Positions 40,587-48,869 are shown, counted from the stretch's first letter. The stretch is 64,000 nt of DNA from Coprothermobacter proteolyticus DSM 5265 (GCF_000020945.1 NC_011295.1:62001-126000), one strand, 5' to 3'. The notes: a model not told the origin generated them from the sequence alone. Made by a program: numbers and translations.

Positions 40587-40943
40587 ATGAAATGGTGGGA
40601 AGTGGATTTTGAGCGCATTAAAGAAAGTGAAGAGTTTAAGAAACTTACTGGAGTGTGGCTGGAGCTAAAGTTAGGTTACTTAGTTTTTCACGTTCCAGTT
40701 AATTTGTTTTACCTGTCCTACGTGCTGGCAAAAAGTAGCGGCAAAGAACAGATTACATACACGTTGACAGGCGGTTTTGTGCTGCAGATTGCACTTTCAG
40801 ATGTTGAAAGGGTACTGTCCCACATCGAAAAGGGTGAAAAACCTTTTTCTCTTAATTTGGTAATTGACGGTAAAAAGCGAGAAGTTGTTGCTACTCCAGT
40901 GAAAGTGCCACCTTCCAGTGATGCCAATACACTGGAATCATGA
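40587..40943 (+). CDS. hypothetical protein
   Basis: 118 residues from ATG 40587, which lies 9 nt after GGGGAGG (the frame is open from a TTG at 40578). No domain recognised; alternating short strands and helices, one mildly hydrophobic segment (LGYLVFHVPVNLFYLSYVL). It diverges from the PspC operon, and its last 53 bp overlap the end of a convergent gene on the other strand, which supports a compact arrangement. Confidence 0.6.
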   Translation: MKWWEVDFERIKESEEFKKLTGVWLELKLGYLVFHVPVNLFYLSYVLAKSSGKEQITYTLTGGFVLQIALSDVERVLSHIEKGEKPFSLNLVIDGKKREVVATPVKVPPSSDANTLES

Positions 40944-41265
40944 TTAATAGATAGATTGCATTCCGACCCGCTATGGAATAGTTGTGGCGAAGAGCCACTT
41001 TTCTGTACTGAAGTTCCCTTTGTATTACAAATTCTTTCACCTCTTCCGGTGTGACACTACCCCCTCCAGCCGGTCCGTACTTTTCCCAAAGGAGCTGAGC
41101 CTTGGCATCCTCGTAGTTTATGCGGATAGGGCTCAGTGGAGGTTGTACTAAGATTCCAGACAGTTGTGAAACCAAGTTGCTGGCATAAAAGAGTACGAAC
41201 ATGAGCAGCACAAACGATGCCACATAGTAATAGACCTTCATTCCTGCTTTTTGTTTTTCCGTCAT
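40891..41265 (-). CDS. small two-TM protein, tandem family copy 4
   Basis: 124 residues. TM1 at about 10-30 (VYYYVASFVLLMFVLFYASNLV); an external or cytoplasmic middle with INYEDAKAQLLWEKYGPAGGGSVTPEEVKEFV; TM2 at about 102-118 (AIYLLIMIPVYWHHWKVALSLE). It shares this plan with three genes directly upstream. The initiator Met precedes TEKQKAG. Function unknown; the family may be related to DUF5671-type membrane proteins. It overlaps the convergent gene at 40587 by 53 bp. Confidence 0.7.
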   Translation of the reverse strand: MTEKQKAGMKVYYYVASFVLLMFVLFYASNLVSQLSGILVQPPLSPIRINYEDAKAQLLWEKYGPAGGGSVTPEEVKEFVIQRELQYRKVALRHNYSIAGRNAIYLLIMIPVYWHHWKVALSLE

Positions 41266-41287
41266 TGCACAGCTTCTCCTTGTCGAG

Positions 41288-41665
41288 CTACTCCAGTCTA
41301 CGGGCTACTTTCCAGTGGTACCAAAATACGGGGAAGCACACTACCAAAGAAATCACATTTCTTGCAGCCCCCTGATACCAAGAATATATCTGGAATTGTC
41401 GGTTTTTCTCCCTCTGCTCCTTTACGAAAGCTTGAACCTCTTGTGGTGCTACTGTTGTGTTCTCTGTTACCCCGTATTTTTCCCAAAGTAGTTGCCCTTT
41501 AGCATCTTCATAGTCCCACTGCCCCAGAATAAGAGGTGGAGGTGCCACTATGCCAATGACTTGCCACACAAGGCCGTTTAGGCTGTAGAGCATCATCATG
41601 AGTAAAATGAATGACACCGTGTAGAAGTAAGCCTGTTTTACAGTAATCTGTTCCATGTCAAACAA
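41288..41665 (-). CDS. small two-TM protein, tandem family copy 3
   Basis: 125 residues of the same plan: ITVKQAYFYTVSFILLMMML (TM1), WDYEDAKGQLLWEKYGVTENTTVAPQEVQAFV (middle), and NVISLVVCFPVFWYHWKVARRLE (TM2 and tail). WEKYG, EEV/QEV and HWKVA-LE are shared by the full-length copies. It lies 22 bp from the next copy downstream and 18 bp from the previous one, so the four are one transcript. No function assigned. Confidence 0.72.
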   Translation of the reverse strand: MFDMEQITVKQAYFYTVSFILLMMMLYSLNGLVWQVIGIVAPPPLILGQWDYEDAKGQLLWEKYGVTENTTVAPQEVQAFVKEQREKNRQFQIYSWYQGAARNVISLVVCFPVFWYHWKVARRLE

Positions 41666-41683
41666 GTCCTCTTCTGCACATGG

Positions 41684-42052
41684 TCATTCCAAAGTGCGAG
41701 CAATTTTCCAGTGATACCAGTAAAGAGGGACGATTACTGCCAAATAAAGTGCATTTTTTGCTACGACCTGCCAGTTGTAATAAAGCGTTAGCCTTTGGCT
41801 TTCCTTTTCTTTTTGATCTATGAAGGTTTGTACTTCCTCGGGCGTGACGGTCACGTTTTCAGTGGTGCCGTATTTTTCCCAAAGTAGCTGACGCTTTGCA
41901 TCCTCGTAGTTCCACGTGCCAGCGGTCAGGGGAGGTAAAATGGTTATCTGAACTAACTGCCACAAGAGACTGCCCACATTAAAGAGAATTAGCAGAAGTA
42001 GCACCAGAGAAACGGCGTAAAAATAAACCTTTTTAGCTGTCCAGTTTTGCAT
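41684..42052 (-). CDS. small two-TM protein, tandem family copy 2
   Basis: 122 residues: WTAKKVYFYAVSLVLLLLILF (TM1), WNYEDAKRQLLWEKYGTTENVTVTPEEVQTFI (middle), NALYLAVIVPLYWYHWKIARTLE (TM2). Closest to copy 3 through the middle and to copy 1 at the N-terminus (W-T-x-KKVYFYA). The middle region is highly charged and helical. Function unknown. Confidence 0.72.
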   Translation of the reverse strand: MQNWTAKKVYFYAVSLVLLLLILFNVGSLLWQLVQITILPPLTAGTWNYEDAKRQLLWEKYGTTENVTVTPEEVQTFIDQKEKESQRLTLYYNWQVVAKNALYLAVIVPLYWYHWKIARTLE

Positions 42053-42481: not shown

Positions 42482-42487
42482 GTGCGC

Positions 42488-43318
42488 ATGAAAGGGGATA
42501 AAAGTTTCAAGGGTATGACCCTCATAGAAGTGCTTATTAGTTTAGCACTTCTATCGGTGTTGATGGTTGTAGTGCTTTTCACAAGTACTTGGTTGTTCAC
42601 CTTTGTAAAAAATCGGCTTATAGCCCTGCCTAATTATGTCATTGGCTTGTCAAGAGCTTATAGTGCCGTTTACCTTAACGCGCAGGACATCCAGCTGAGC
42701 GCCACCTACAGCGTTGACAAGAACCTTCCGTCTGTGACGCTGTACAAGAAGAGCGGTTCAGACCTGGTGTCCAATACTGTGAATTTCAAAGAATTGATAC
42801 GTGCCGAGGCGTTGTCCACGGCTACAAGTGCCACGGTAACTTTGGAAGTTCAAACAGCTTCGGTGTCCATTCAGCAGCCAGCTGACAATAAATTCTTGCT
42901 GTTACTTTACCTCAGCATACCTTCTTCTGACGGCAGAAGGTTCGATAATACCGTGGTCATCAAAAAACTGGTGAATGCCGCGCCAGTGCCAGAGAGTTTT
43001 ACGCGGAACGGCAATAACGTCATAGTCGACCTTTATTATCCTGCCTTGGGGTTTGGTGTTAGGCCTACGGGTTCTTCTGATTTGCAGCTGGTGACTGACA
43101 CCAGTACTATTACAACGGTTATTGACAGCAGCGGAGTTCGTTCAACCGCCACGGCAATGCTCACAGGCACAACTACCAAACTGGGACCCAACGTTTATCA
43201 AGCGTTGTTCATAGAGTCAACTGCGACGCAACCTGAGTTTATCACGTTGCCACCACTTATTGGGGTCGATGGCACACCTTGTGAAGACGTTACTGTAAAG
43301 GTGGTGGCAAGCCCATGA
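42488..43318 (+). CDS. type IV pilin-like/pseudopilin protein (PilW/GspJ-like)
   Basis: 276 residues with a class III (prepilin) signal: a short basic leader, then MTLIEVLISLALLSVLMVVVLF, with Glu at +5 of the hydrophobic segment after FKG. The C-terminal domain of about 240 residues is beta-rich and unrecognised. The mature protein would be cut by a prepilin peptidase and join a pilus or type II-like pseudopilus. Gene order with a PilX/GspK-like protein and another prepilin fits a minor-pilin set. No assembly ATPase, platform or peptidase gene is nearby. It overlaps the next gene by 4 bp. Confidence 0.75.
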   Translation: MKGDKSFKGMTLIEVLISLALLSVLMVVVLFTSTWLFTFVKNRLIALPNYVIGLSRAYSAVYLNAQDIQLSATYSVDKNLPSVTLYKKSGSDLVSNTVNFKELIRAEALSTATSATVTLEVQTASVSIQQPADNKFLLLLYLSIPSSDGRRFDNTVVIKKLVNAAPVPESFTRNGNNVIVDLYYPALGFGVRPTGSSDLQLVTDTSTITTVIDSSGVRSTATAMLTGTTTKLGPNVYQALFIESTATQPEFITLPPLIGVDGTPCEDVTVKVVASP

Positions 43319-43791
43319 AAAAAGGCATTGCACTGATAACAGTTTTAGCTTTTGTTCTCATACTTAGTTTACTCATGGTGCCTCTGTATGTGTCTGTTTT
43401 GGGGATGACCTCCACACTGCGCAGTATTCAGGTCTTGCCTGCTAAACACGAGGCTTTTGCTGCTGGACTCAATGTGGTCCGTGTGCTCATCGTAAATGCT
43501 CAAGATATGGAAACCAGTACTACTATTGAGCTTGCACAAGGCCCAATCGTAGTGACTGCTAGTTTAGCAAGATCTTTTGACAGTGATTTATCGCTTCAAG
43601 ATGAGATAGATTGCGAAGGCACAGCAAGTCCTGTTGTGAAAATGAGAATGTGTAGTGCTGTTAACTACTGGGATGTCACAGTGCACTTTAAGGATAACTA
43701 CGTGCTTACCGGAACAGCAGTGCAGTACGTGATGTTCCAGCCTGACAAGGATTATGTGTATTTACTGGATTTTAAGGAGAAAAGGGAGTGA
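43315..43791 (+). CDS. PilX/GspK-like minor pseudopilin
   Basis: 158 residues. The N-terminus KKGIALITVLAFVLILSLLMVPLYVSVLG is like PilX/GspK proteins: G followed by a hydrophobic helix, without Glu at +5 (GIALIT). This variant is typical of the tip-initiating minor pilin. The rest is a small beta domain with two Cys (DCEG and RMCS). The ATG overlaps the preceding stop (ATGA). It is in one operon with the flanking pseudopilins. Confidence 0.65.
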   Translation: MKKGIALITVLAFVLILSLLMVPLYVSVLGMTSTLRSIQVLPAKHEAFAAGLNVVRVLIVNAQDMETSTTIELAQGPIVVTASLARSFDSDLSLQDEIDCEGTASPVVKMRMCSAVNYWDVTVHFKDNYVLTGTAVQYVMFQPDKDYVYLLDFKEKRE

Positions 43792-43796
43792 GCGGC

Positions 43797-45185
43797 ATGC
43801 GTAGAAAAATGAAAGGTTTCACCCTCTTGGAAGTGGTCATTGCTCTTGTCATAGTCGCCATTTTAGCTGCGGGTACATTACCTGCTTTGTCAAACATCAA
43901 TAAGCAATCATTCCAAACAGAGATAGACCTTAACTTGCCCTCAGTTGGCCAAGCTGCTCTGAATGGCCAGAGTTCAGCCACAAGCCTTTATGCTGATTTG
44001 ACTGATACTACCACAAGAAGTGTTTCTTTGCTTACTAACGAGCTTGTCAAACACAGTGCCACAGTCAGCAGTAAGGGTTACACCTATGCCATTGACACGC
44101 TCTATGCCGACGTGGGAGTGGGACTGGGAAGTCTGGGTGCTGGTTCACCATTTAAAGAAGGCGACACCGCCTCCCACGAGGACACTAGTACTACGCCGGT
44201 AATTATCACACCAACGACGACACATACTGAGCCTACGCTCGGAAGTGCGAATCTTCTTGACTGGGAAGTATGTTCTGACAAGGATAACCAAAATGAGGAT
44301 GAGCATACCTATGGCCCTGGTTACGTGCAAGTTAATTCTAATGGTGACGGTTTTATTGACTATGGCCTTACTTTCCCAGTGCAATCTAGTGCATCGGATG
44401 ACAACTATGTAATAGTTGCCATACCCGGGAACACTAAACTGCAAAAAAGCTGCGATAAAGATTGCAAGCATGTAGACTGGAGCTTTGTTGCTTTTCTTAA
44501 TAAGACGACAACATCTTCCATTGAAAATAAAGTTTGCAAGCCCAAGAGTAATGAGAACGGAATCGCTAAGCTTCTTAGTACTAGTACTTCAATCCAAGAG
44601 ACTGAATTGACTGCAACTGAAAGTGGGCAAGGGAATGGAGGCAGCTATTACTTCCCTAACGGGACTGCATCAACCGCAAGCATAATTTACAAGTACAAGT
44701 TTGTAGCTAAAATAGAAAAGAAACTATACTGGAGTATGCACTTTGTTATAAAGTTCATGGACGGTACACCTCTCCAAAACCAATGGGTTCGCATTTACAT
44801 ACCTAATAGTTCAGGAGAAGTCACAACTGAAATTCCTGCCGTTATCGGAGAGGAAACAGCCACCACTACCACCTATGGGCGTGCGAAAATTCCTGTATCT
44901 TATGACGCTCCAAGTGGGTTACTCGCTTGGGATTCCATAACCTTTGATTTGTCCGAAAACGCTTCAGTGACGGTTAAAGTCAAGACTGATTCCATGAGTG
45001 ACAGCGAGGCTTACGTGTTCCACGCCACTGGCCCTGCGAGCCAAATTAAAATCAGCCTTAGGCAGTACAACTTGCCCCCTGAAGATTTGAGCATTACTTT
45101 CTATATAGCCCCTATCGACAATACAAAGCCCGCAACCGTAAACAATGTTCAGGTTTCCTATTGGACCGCTGCAACAAGCCCATGA
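43797..45185 (+). CDS. type IV pilin-like/pseudopilin protein with large C-terminal domain
   Basis: 462 residues. Prepilin motif KMKGFTLLEVVIALVIVAILAAG, with G/F cleavage site and Glu +5, is standard. The remaining 430 residues are large for a minor pilin and contain Thr/Ser-rich linkers, Cys-bearing segments (CSDKDNQNEDEHTYGPG, KSCDKDCKHVDW) and a final beta domain. Acidic D/N-rich DKDNQNEDE could bind Ca2+. ATG 43797 follows GGGAG at 8 nt; the frame is open to 43788. It may be an adhesive tip subunit. Confidence 0.72.
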   Translation: MRRKMKGFTLLEVVIALVIVAILAAGTLPALSNINKQSFQTEIDLNLPSVGQAALNGQSSATSLYADLTDTTTRSVSLLTNELVKHSATVSSKGYTYAIDTLYADVGVGLGSLGAGSPFKEGDTASHEDTSTTPVIITPTTTHTEPTLGSANLLDWEVCSDKDNQNEDEHTYGPGYVQVNSNGDGFIDYGLTFPVQSSASDDNYVIVAIPGNTKLQKSCDKDCKHVDWSFVAFLNKTTTSSIENKVCKPKSNENGIAKLLSTSTSIQETELTATESGQGNGGSYYFPNGTASTASIIYKYKFVAKIEKKLYWSMHFVIKFMDGTPLQNQWVRIYIPNSSGEVTTEIPAVIGEETATTTTYGRAKIPVSYDAPSGLLAWDSITFDLSENASVTVKVKTDSMSDSEAYVFHATGPASQIKISLRQYNLPPEDLSITFYIAPIDNTKPATVNNVQVSYWTAATSP

Positions 45186-45298: not shown

Positions 45299-45721
45299 GT
45301 GCGTTACATAACTTACGATTTGGGCGAAAGGGTTTATGCCAGTGAACTGCTTAGTGTGAAAGAGATCGTGCTAAAGGAGGAACTTAGATCCATACCAGGT
45401 GCTCAGCCTTGGCTGCTGGGTGTGATGGCCTTAAGGGGGCAACTTTTACCCGTAATTGATCTGGGTTTTAGGCTTCAAGGTAGGCCGAGCCAGGGTGACA
45501 AGGTACTGGTTTTGGATAGCGAGCGGCCTGTGGGCTTCTTGGTGGACGATGTGAGGAACATTGAAGATGTGGGAGAGCTAAAGCCACTTCCACTGGAGCT
45601 ACCTGACAACGTGAAGCGTTTTTTAGTGGGTAGCTTCTTTCATGGTGGAGACATTGTGCTCGTGCTTGACCTTAAAAAAGTGCTCACTGAACAGGAGTTA
45701 TCTGAGGTTACTGCTCCATAA
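45299..45721 (+). CDS. cheW: chemotaxis coupling protein CheW
   Basis: 140-residue scaffold that links chemoreceptor tips to the CheA kinase. The CheW core is clear: YITYDLGERVYASELLSVKEIV, IPGAQPWLLGVMALRGQLLPVIDLGFRLQG, KVLVLDSERPVGFLVDDVRNIEDV. The GTG start lies 8 nt after GGGGAGGT. cheA is not in the window; a chemoreceptor is encoded at 30033. Its last 14 bp overlap the end of the convergent diguanylate cyclase gene. Confidence 0.88.
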   Translation: MRYITYDLGERVYASELLSVKEIVLKEELRSIPGAQPWLLGVMALRGQLLPVIDLGFRLQGRPSQGDKVLVLDSERPVGFLVDDVRNIEDVGELKPLPLELPDNVKRFLVGSFFHGGDIVLVLDLKKVLTEQELSEVTAP

Positions 45722-48700
45722 TGTGGTTTTTCTTTCTTGTTTTTGCCAAGTAGGTGCGCTGGTCTGCTAAGTCAACTAATTGTTCTACGGAGTTTACTTC
45801 AGAGACTGATGAGGCGCCAATACTGGCTGTGACTGGTTTTCCTAAAGATGTGATGCATGATGATATCTGATTGCTTAGCCGCCGAGATATGGTGGCAGCT
45901 TCTTCCTCGTCCGTGTCAGGCAAAATAACAAGGAACTCATCGCCTCCCCATCTTATGGCAACATCGGTTGCTCTGAGCGACGAACGTAACAGCTTTGAGA
46001 ATTCCATGAGGACTTTGTCACCCATTTCGTGTCCAAAGGAATCATTCACCTGTTTGAAGCCGTCCAAATCTAAAAAGAGAATACTAAACTGTGGACCACC
46101 GCGCAGGTATAGTTCCCATTCTTCTGTTAGACGCTGGTTTCCATAGGTTCTGTTGAACAAACCAGTAAGAGAATCCTGCATTCCAAAGAGTTTTGTATTA
46201 AGCTCCTCAAGACTGTAACTAAGTAAATCAAGAACCTGCGGTGCCAGAGGATCGTTTAGTGTGCTGTACCACACCCTGATGTGAATTACAGAGCCCTTTT
46301 CTATGAAATTCTGACTTCTTTTCGCAATGCGGTGGTCGCCAACTTCCAGGTTCAGTGTTCCACTTTCAATTTTTGCAAAATAGTCATGGCCAAAATAAGA
46401 TTGGAAGATGTAACTCAGTGCCCCTGCGAGCTGCTGCACGTTAGTAATCTCCTGCAAGTTTAGGTGCCAACTTAGCAAGCTGCTCCATTGGGACACAGCG
46501 GCAATGCTTTGGTAGGTTTTCTGCCAAAATGAAGTAAGCTGAGGGTAGTCCAGTGCACGAACCTCCTGGAGTATCCAATCTGCCATGGTTTTAAGCATGG
46601 TTTTATCAGTATTTTCACACACACTTTTAAAGATGACTATGCCCAAGTTGGACATGGAAAGACGTTCCCAGCGCCGCCACAATCTGAGCATGTAGCGAAA
46701 GGCGTTTGAGCAGTTATCAGGACTAATGGCAAGCATCTTCAAGGATTCGCCTAGTGGGGTTGAAGGAAGTTGTCCAAGCAACTGCGTGGGTATGGGATTC
46801 CAATGCACCATTAGCAGAACAGAAACCAATGCGGCAGTATCTATTCCTTCGTCCACATGCTCCATACAACGGCTAAGTAAGGAAGCAATGTCTCCCTTTT
46901 CTACTTCTCGTCCTTCAAGCAGTCTTAGGTAAGTCCACAAGATCTTTGTGTTCAGCTCTTCCACTTCTAAAGTTGCATTCTTTGACGCCAGAATGAGAAA
47001 CCACTCAGCCAAATTGAAATCCAGTACGCTGATATAGTGCTCTGCCAGTGTCATGTAACCGCTGTGCCTGTATGTGGAGGACAGTAGAACTCTGGTAGTT
47101 TCTTCGAGTTCCCTGATGTATTTCTGCAGTGTTCCTCTGGACATGAATTCTTGCAGACTGGTAAGTAGCGTTTGCCAAAAGCCTTGTTGTCCTACACTGG
47201 ATAGGGTGGGTATCAAATTTTCCAAGCTTTCCTTGCTTTCCAAAATGGTTTTTGTGCCACTAAGGATGGTTTTTATGGCAACCTCATTAATAACTGGTCT
47301 TGCAAAAATCTCCAAGCGTGGGGTTCCTTGAAGCACCTTAATAGACTCCTGATAGAGCTCAACGGCATCTTCATATTTCAAGGAGTATTCCAAGGAAACG
47401 CCTACAGCATTAAGAAAAGCGCCCCAGTGCAGTATGGGGACTCTTACGTGGCTCGAGGCTAATCTCACGTAGTAGTCGTACATTTTTCGAGGTTCGTTTA
47501 TTGTGTCTATGATGTAAGGGGCTAAGTCTGATAGCATGCCAGGCCAGTAAAACGAACTCACGTTTTCAATGTGGTTTAAGAGAAAATCTCCAAGCTTGCG
47601 GGCTTCTTCGTCCATACCCAAAAGTACATATAGCCGCACCTTGTACGCCTGATCAAACAGCGTTGGAGACTTAATCTGCTCAAGTATGGAAAGAGCTTCC
47701 TTGTATTTTCCCTGCGAGTAATAAATGTTTGCTAGTTTGCGTTTTGCACCATTCAATTCTGGAAATAGCTCCAGTGCTTTCTCCAGAATGAAAGCTGCTT
47801 GAGGATAGCTGTATTCCTTTCTTGATGCCATGAGAAGCGCAAAAGCTTCACTACGCTTTTCCTTTCCATTAGCAAATAGATGTGCAATGCGTGTCCAGTA
47901 TGTGGGCATGTTCAGTTTGCTTAATTCTTTTGCCCACCAAACATGGACATGATTTTTGTCAAGCCCGCTCATCTGCCAAACCGTATCTTTTACTTCAGGC
48001 GAAAGAAAGCGGTACTGCGGCTCTTCTTCAATGATGAGCGGAGAATCTAGTAACGAATACTCACTCTCAAGGATGATTTCTTCAACTATTCTTTTACTTA
48101 ATGGGCTGAACCAAAGGTCACCTGCGCATAGATGGGCTAAGGCGCTAAACAGCTTTGGATTTTTCTCCTTTTCCATGGCCACAATTTGCTGCAAGCTCTC
48201 AGCGTGTTGTTCTTTGAGCAGCTGTGCATTGAACAGATTTCCCCTAGACATTTCCACGAGTTTCTGGGCATCTGAGTAGCTCAAATCATTCCAGACTTCT
48301 ATGAACTGCTGTAGAGCATCTTCACGTTCATGCTCTGGGTCACGCATAGGAACCACAGGGTAGCCCAGCTCTTTGAAAACATCTGTGGAGGTAGATGTGG
48401 CAACAATTATTATACCTTCCTTTGGTAGTTCACGCAACACATATTTTACTGAGTCGTCCAGCTCGGTAGGATCCAGCTGGTCTAAAAGCAGAGCCTTTAT
48501 GCGGAACTCCTCCAAAAGTGTGAGTGTGCTAAGCAGTATGTCTCTGTTTATGGCTTGAGTGTCCACCAAGTAATTTGGTTTTACCGCTAGTGAAACTGGT
48601 ACTTCATCTGCGGAGATGTATCTTAAAAATGTTGACCACGACTTTTCATCTAGGCGAGTTGCTTGATCCCAGTTTGAAGAAAGTATGCTCCAATAGAGCT

Positions 48701-48869
48701 CTCCAAGGGGCATTCGAAACGAGTGTATGTGAATGTAGAAACTGCGCTCCAACCGTCGTCGCAAACCCTTTAACAGAAACGTTTTCCCACTGCCATGTTG
48801 TCCCCAGACGCCTAAGCGATTTCTTATGATGCTTCCTAAAACCTGACTAAGCTTTTCATCGTACCACAT
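45708..48869 (-). CDS. STAND-type ATPase with TPR-like region and C-terminal GGDEF diguanylate cyclase
   Basis: Cytoplasmic signalling protein of 1053 residues. An N-terminal P-loop ATPase has Walker A GQHGSGKTF (about 24-32) and Walker B KALLLDQLDP (about 134), in the manner of MalT/LuxR-type STAND proteins. A long helical-repeat region (about 340-860; KRKLANIYYSQGKYKEALSILEQI) fits tetratricopeptide sensors. The C-terminus is a GGDEF domain: DSLTGLFNRTYGNQRL, LDLDGFKQVNDSFGHEMGD, and RWGGDEFLVILPDTDEE with GGDEF at 975-979. RATD five residues before it fits the c-di-GMP inhibitory I-site. It probably makes c-di-GMP when the ATPase is triggered. Usual STAND proteins end in a DNA-binding domain instead. 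Confidence 0.85.
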   Translation of the reverse strand: MWYDEKLSQVLGSIIRNRLGVWGQHGSGKTFLLKGLRRRLERSFYIHIHSFRMPLGELYWSILSSNWDQATRLDEKSWSTFLRYISADEVPVSLAVKPNYLVDTQAINRDILLSTLTLLEEFRIKALLLDQLDPTELDDSVKYVLRELPKEGIIIVATSTSTDVFKELGYPVVPMRDPEHEREDALQQFIEVWNDLSYSDAQKLVEMSRGNLFNAQLLKEQHAESLQQIVAMEKEKNPKLFSALAHLCAGDLWFSPLSKRIVEEIILESEYSLLDSPLIIEEEPQYRFLSPEVKDTVWQMSGLDKNHVHVWWAKELSKLNMPTYWTRIAHLFANGKEKRSEAFALLMASRKEYSYPQAAFILEKALELFPELNGAKRKLANIYYSQGKYKEALSILEQIKSPTLFDQAYKVRLYVLLGMDEEARKLGDFLLNHIENVSSFYWPGMLSDLAPYIIDTINEPRKMYDYYVRLASSHVRVPILHWGAFLNAVGVSLEYSLKYEDAVELYQESIKVLQGTPRLEIFARPVINEVAIKTILSGTKTILESKESLENLIPTLSSVGQQGFWQTLLTSLQEFMSRGTLQKYIRELEETTRVLLSSTYRHSGYMTLAEHYISVLDFNLAEWFLILASKNATLEVEELNTKILWTYLRLLEGREVEKGDIASLLSRCMEHVDEGIDTAALVSVLLMVHWNPIPTQLLGQLPSTPLGESLKMLAISPDNCSNAFRYMLRLWRRWERLSMSNLGIVIFKSVCENTDKTMLKTMADWILQEVRALDYPQLTSFWQKTYQSIAAVSQWSSLLSWHLNLQEITNVQQLAGALSYIFQSYFGHDYFAKIESGTLNLEVGDHRIAKRSQNFIEKGSVIHIRVWYSTLNDPLAPQVLDLLSYSLEELNTKLFGMQDSLTGLFNRTYGNQRLTEEWELYLRGGPQFSILFLDLDGFKQVNDSFGHEMGDKVLMEFSKLLRSSLRATDVAIRWGGDEFLVILPDTDEEEAATISRRLSNQISSCITSLGKPVTASIGASSVSEVNSVEQLVDLADQRTYLAKTRKKNHIMEQ

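Follow-up and report, generated by a model that had tools for sequence, protein, structure and literature searches.

STAND proteins (signal transduction ATPases with numerous domains) are switches; in bacteria they are known to control transcription, and in plants and animals they govern cell death or immunity. GGDEF domains make the second messenger cyclic di-GMP (c-di-GMP); they act as dimers and, as in PleD, are subject to product inhibition at an I-site. Here we describe protein A of Coprothermobacter proteolyticus DSM 5265, in which a predicted STAND switch sits on this dimerisation-requiring, second-messenger enzyme. Its gene lies in a window of 64,000 nucleotides, bases 62001-126000 of the one-contig genome (1,424,912 bases), and feature coordinates are given in this window. 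We propose, with a probability of roughly 0.6, that A is a diguanylate cyclase of the cytosol, gated by inducer and nucleotide and switched on through STAND assembly.

Related systems

The closest described protein is PH0952 of Pyrococcus horikoshii (6MFV), the best structural match, which presents the same order and fold as A: nucleotide-binding domain (NBD), helical domain (HD), winged-helix domain (WHD), arm and tetratricopeptide repeats (TPR). It differs in that A carries a C-terminal GGDEF domain and has the GxP motif replaced. The second-best structural match is 8BOB chain C, which we take to be MalT, the entry being concerned with negative regulation of the maltose system. MalT likewise consists of a STAND switch, a repeat sensor and a C-terminal output; however, its output is DNA binding, whereas that of A is an enzyme, and the two are only ~11% identical in sequence. 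The switch fold is also that of Apaf-1, CED-4 and the NLR proteins, whose sensors differ and whose outputs are death or immune responses.

On the cyclase side, the PleD/WspR class possesses the same catalytic domain and I-site as A, but its input is provided by receiver domains and it has no STAND module. The TPR-GGDEF cyclases ('tetratricopeptide repeat-containing diguanylate cyclase') share both TPR and GGDEF with A; a Rhizobium example of 546 aa is too short, judged on length alone, for a layout of NTPase, solenoid and GGDEF. AAA_16 proteins with GAF and GGDEF domains also exist elsewhere. Finally, GGDEF is a rare effector under NTPase control in the VMAP/vWA ternary systems (PMC7159879), although the constant modules and gene organisation differ from those of A, and no fusion of GGDEF with a STAND-TPR unit is stated there. 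No description of a STAND-GGDEF protein was found in the freely readable literature. Protein A combines known kinds of module.

Domain architecture of protein A

The open reading frame (ORF) of protein A has an ATG start and 1053 open codons, and its parts are the following.

45708-48869, minus strand: STAND-TPR-(GAF-like)-GGDEF protein A, 1053 aa (ORF, Pfam and model)
48345-48869, minus strand: NBD, residues ~1-175 (AAA_16 in four orthologs; the model of residues 1-420 matches 6MFV, 8BOB and Apaf-1)
48780-48803, minus strand: Walker A GQHGSGKT, residues 23-30 (read from the DNA)
48471-48494, minus strand: Walker B ALLLDQLD, residues 126-133, in orthologs hhhhD[QG]L[DE] (read from the DNA)
48204-48338, minus strand: HD, residues 178-222, GNL replacing the STAND GxP (borders from the secondary structure of the model)
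47961-48194, minus strand: WHD, residues 226-303, with a beta hairpin at 279-288 (model)
46440-47960, minus strand: arm and helical/TPR solenoid, residues 304-810, with TPR_19 at 354-408 (Pfam and model)
46245-46439, minus strand: small alpha/beta domain, residues 811-875, of GAF-like order H-E-E-H-E-E-(H) (model)
46185-46244, minus strand: helix 876-895 leading into GGDEF, a signalling helix (model)
45723-46178, minus strand: GGDEF domain, residues 898-1049 (PF00990, E 1.8e-41; PleD 2v0n, Z 24.3)
45963-45974, minus strand: inhibitory I-site RATD, residues 966-969 (read from the DNA)
45933-45947, minus strand: active-site GGDEF, residues 975-979 (read from the DNA)

This architecture is well supported. 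The PF00990 match of the GGDEF domain is far beyond chance, and the domain superimposes on PleD (2v0n) with a root mean square deviation (rmsd) of 1.4 Å over 153 residues. The RATD I-site precedes GGDEF by the canonical 5-residue spacing, and GGDEF and RxxD are intact in every readable copy, namely three A genes and three genes of the paralog B (see below). Thus the diguanylate cyclase output with intact active site and I-site, as read by the preliminary description of this locus, stands. In the A ortholog of Coprothermobacter sp. UBA10526 (L072 / L028), a stretch of N separates two halves that lie in different frames, which looks like an assembly gap.

Upstream of the cyclase, the TPR assignment rests on TPR_19 (PF14559, residues 354-408, E 2.5e-7, above the Pfam cut-off). 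A thus contains a repeat sensor, its TPR_19/helical solenoid, with an effector at one end; the solenoid is likely to be the inducer sensor. No helix-turn-helix family matched A, and a LuxR-type output of this kind is absent, the C-terminus being GGDEF. In the full-length model, residues 811-895 form a helix, two strands, a helix, two strands and a long helix directly before GGDEF, and from this predicted order residues 811-875 may tentatively be called GAF-like. With a maximum Kyte-Doolittle value of 1.39 and no membrane segment, protein A is probably soluble and cytosolic.

The STAND switch

Since the ATPase is borderline by sequence alone, and since VIA-align comparisons of the full-length model were dominated by GGDEF rows, residues 1-420 were modelled separately with AlphaFold, together with six relatives. 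The resulting model (pLDDT, a per-residue confidence score, 89.7; pTM, predicted template modelling score, 0.81) presents the NBD-HD-WHD fold, or nucleotide-binding oligomerisation domain (NOD), by which a STAND NTPase is recognised. The top two Foldseek matches in the PDB were 6MFV (E 1.3e-8) and 8BOB chain C (9e-6), followed by ORC and CED-4. VIA-align returned Z 17.7 for PH0952 (6MFV; rmsd 5.1, 367 aligned), 17.0 for 8BOB (rmsd 5.3, 341 aligned) and 16.9 for Apaf-1 (3shf; rmsd 6.1, 357 aligned), with other NLR, NB-ARC and ORC proteins ranging from 13.4 down to ~10. Indeed, 6MFV is also the best non-cyclase match of the full-length model, over 676 alignment columns. The preliminary description had proposed a fusion of a MalT-like STAND ATPase, TPR and GGDEF, to be given up if the N-terminal part lacked a STAND fold or the cyclase site was lost; its ORF proved exact, and both fold and site are present.

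The Walker A motif GxxxxGK[ST] is kept in the A proteins of four genomes (GQHGSGKT, GPHGSGKT or GPPGTGKT), down to 38-40% identity, and the AAA_16 match recurs across all four orthologs. In Walker B (hhhhD[QG]L[DE]) the first Asp is invariant and an acid stands at +3, an arrangement resembling the extended Walker B of NLR proteins, hhhhDGxDE (PMC9633759). Protein A is accordingly best described, on its modelled fold, as a STAND protein with altered nucleotide contacts. Because Walker A is conserved, ATP-driven oligomerisation, suggested earlier as the activator of the cyclase, appears plausible, but GxP is replaced and Walker B lacks its second acid.

Protein B, a twin with a degenerate P-loop

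The C. proteolyticus genome encodes only two GGDEF proteins, A and a full-length paralog, B (G000:C1:144,543-147,722; 1035-1059 aa), with the genes ~37 kb apart. Neither B nor the GAF-like linker of A figures in the preliminary description. The two align end to end, at ~23% identity for residues 26-528 (E 1.7e-21) and 34% over the last 238 residues. C. platensis likewise possesses exactly A and B as GGDEF proteins, and Coprothermobacteraceae Ch108 has A, B and three shorter GGDEF proteins. In a tree, the GGDEF domains of A and of B form sister groups (support 0.98), and across the three genomes that have complete copies each group is monophyletic; a fused ancestor thus duplicated before the genera split, and the pair has been retained since.

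The Walker A of B reads IPTG[KR]GR[ST], with the lysine changed to Arg, in 4/4 genomes, and Walker B (hhhhDD) is kept in 4/4. As the P-loop lysine is lost, B probably works without ATP, as a twin or partner of A.

Proposed mechanism and its alternatives

In STAND proteins, the switch opens when an inducer binds the repeat sensor; ATP then takes the place of ADP and the protomers multimerise (PMC6468293). By joining this multimerisation with the dimer requirement of GGDEF domains, a cycle can be proposed for A. Its input module would comprise the complete STAND switch, from NBD through HD and WHD to the arm, and the TPR-type sensor behind it, with the GAF-like domain and signalling helix connecting this module to GGDEF. 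At rest, the nucleotide would be clamped and the GGDEF domains held apart. We infer that an inducer on the TPR solenoid would open the switch, which would take up ATP and allow protomers to assemble; assembly would pair the GGDEF domains and c-di-GMP would be made, until the RATD I-site ended synthesis. The signal may then act via a PilZ protein adjoining a flagellar/chemotaxis cluster; its degradation would fall to three HD-GYP proteins.

Several observations weigh against this proposal. The AAA_16 match (residues 19-150) has a Pfam E of 2e-4, below the cut-off of the family. The second acid of Walker B is replaced by Q or G in the A orthologs, and GNL (in all A proteins) or [GE]NW (in B) takes the place of the GxP with which STANDs contact the nucleotide. 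The WHD His that contacts the ADP phosphates probably corresponds, in an alignment made by eye only, to an invariant Ser (YRFxS). No GAF match was returned by Pfam in five orthologous segments. The full-length model is of moderate confidence (pLDDT 71.9, pTM 0.47), with weak stretches at 573-619 and 729-800, and does not fix the arrangement of the domains. Finally, a motility output is made less likely by the published description of C. proteolyticus as nonmotile (PMC4022818).

Some of these features would suit a gate that responds to nucleotide status without any large assembly: A would read ATP/ADP, or need ATP just for folding, and the linker helix alone would dimerise GGDEF. The replacement of GxP, and probably of the WHD His, agrees with this, as does the helix before GGDEF, a feature of many cyclases; furthermore, the conservation of B without its P-loop lysine implies that a related cyclase can do without ATP binding. 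Nevertheless, four A orthologs retain Walker A along with the entire NBD-HD-WHD-arm fold, and we consider such a gate somewhat unlikely.

The presence of B raises the question as to whether the two proteins assemble together, A contributing ATP-driven assembly and B cyclase subunits and a second sensor. They coexist in three fully readable genomes, both with intact GGDEF and I-site; Walker A is retained in A, and in B the DD of Walker B persists although the P-loop Lys is gone from every ortholog. However, the genes are unlinked (~37 kb) and the proteins ~23% identical overall, and a mixed assembly is in our opinion unlikely.

The cheW neighbourhood

One neighbouring gene had been singled out in the preliminary description.

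45299-45721, plus strand: cheW, single domain, 140 aa, convergent neighbour (PF01584, E 1.3e-24)

As described there, cheW is convergent with A, overlapping its 3' end by 14 bp on the opposite strand; being convergent, it is not co-transcribed with A. Three pseudopilin-like genes (42482-45185) run into cheW on the same strand. These genes are fast-evolving, at 27-36% identity between species compared with 63-76% for the well-conserved cheW. A tandem array at 40891-42052 encodes three small membrane proteins (122-125 aa) that are paralogs of one another. A scan for promoters and terminators gave nothing exceeding chance, and PADLOC returned no defence-system match.

The arrangement guaA-guaB-(GH3)-A, followed by convergent cheW with its three pseudopilin-like genes, recurs in C. 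platensis, a GH3 gene lying upstream in this species as in C. proteolyticus; Coprothermobacteraceae Ch108 has the same arrangement minus GH3. Such conservation attests to common descent of the region and is no demonstration of function. The suggested link from cheW to motility or pili finds some backing in synteny across two genera, but is weak given the convergent orientation and the fact that the unrelated guaA/guaB are conserved there too. A chemosensory or pilus device, in which A would act on the adjoining CheW/pseudopilin system, therefore seems quite improbable: the gene order beside A is indeed maintained in C. platensis and Ch108, yet A lies on the opposite strand, the same-strand run of cheW is with the pseudopilin-like genes, and the guaA/guaB and small-protein neighbours are also conserved. 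Moreover, the PilB-like ATPase (L013:5776-7386; weak MshEN) has two MshEN-like motifs in which Q or K replaces the RLG arginine.

The least probable explanation, in which A is a TPR-GGDEF cyclase of the ordinary kind bearing what is left of a decayed ATPase, could appeal to the abundance of TPR-containing diguanylate cyclases, e.g., on Rhizobium plasmids, and to B as a sign that P-loop loss is tolerated, but is at odds with a complete fold and a Walker A retained in A down to 38-40% identity. We therefore retain activation through STAND assembly as the preferred reading of A.

The c-di-GMP network

The survey for PilZ and EAL proteins proposed in the preliminary description yielded a single PilZ protein genome-wide, with RxxxR and DLSAGG (DxSxxG) motifs, and no EAL protein; HD-GYP proteins number three. 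The PilZ gene (L012:6627-7328) lies directly upstream of cheW-cheA and of genes read as cheC, cheD, fliA and flg, the names beyond cheW/cheA being read from sequence and not from family searches. This cluster, which includes an HDOD protein, occupies L012:6627-18474 (G000:C1 ~278,600-290,500). PilZ beside the cheA/fliA/flg cluster is a better motility link than the cheW next to A. Flagellar and CheY transcripts have been ascribed to C. proteolyticus (PMC6988822), and isolates without flagellar potential are on record (PMC7501288). A scan for c-di-GMP-I riboswitches gave no match, nor did its control.

Wider distribution

A profile of the A/B N-terminus found no relatives outside Coprothermobacteraceae in 84,980 genomes, although this is one peptide pattern that distant relatives could escape, and none in plasmids. 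A-type proteins are likewise absent from the sister order and from the third family of the phylum. The sister family nevertheless offers proteins with the general layout of A/B, even if the profile comparison is weak (E ~3e-4 to 7e-4, probability 26-42%). L054 and L055 (L054:2636-5995, L055:1358-4717) each encode 1120 aa with GPSGIGKT, hhhhDD, AAA_22/AAA_16 matches and a long helical middle, and L052 (L052:349-3948) encodes 1200 aa with an altered Walker A (GPEGIGKR), a canonical GNP, TPR_12 and GGEEF. Proteins of NTPase-solenoid-GGDEF layout are a theme in the phylum.

In L054/L055 the active site is GGEEM instead of GGEEF and Walker A is intact, and L052 is without the RxxD I-site pattern. 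Four further GGDEF proteins of the sister family (~1000-1165 aa; L050:4825-8037, L057:2447-5941, L056:51-3017, L059:2131-5166) have first stretches of 800-1000 residues without any Pfam family match.

Implications

The point of note is that both C. proteolyticus cyclases are STAND-type twins, one of them P-loop degenerate. It is tempting, if doubtful, to extend this to all c-di-GMP synthesis in Coprothermobacter being STAND-type, with A and its pseudo-ATPase twin B co-assembling as an apoptosome-like hub for an intracellular inducer read by the repeats. The natural pair, ATP-competent A and P-loop-degenerate B, is in any case a ready test of what ATP binding contributes, and A makes possible a simple soluble assay of the whole STAND cycle, with inducer in and c-di-GMP out. 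Furthermore, as the compact genome encodes no cyclase beyond A and B, the c-di-GMP network of C. proteolyticus is near minimal (two cyclases, three HD-GYP proteins and one PilZ protein) and lends itself to testing in its entirety.
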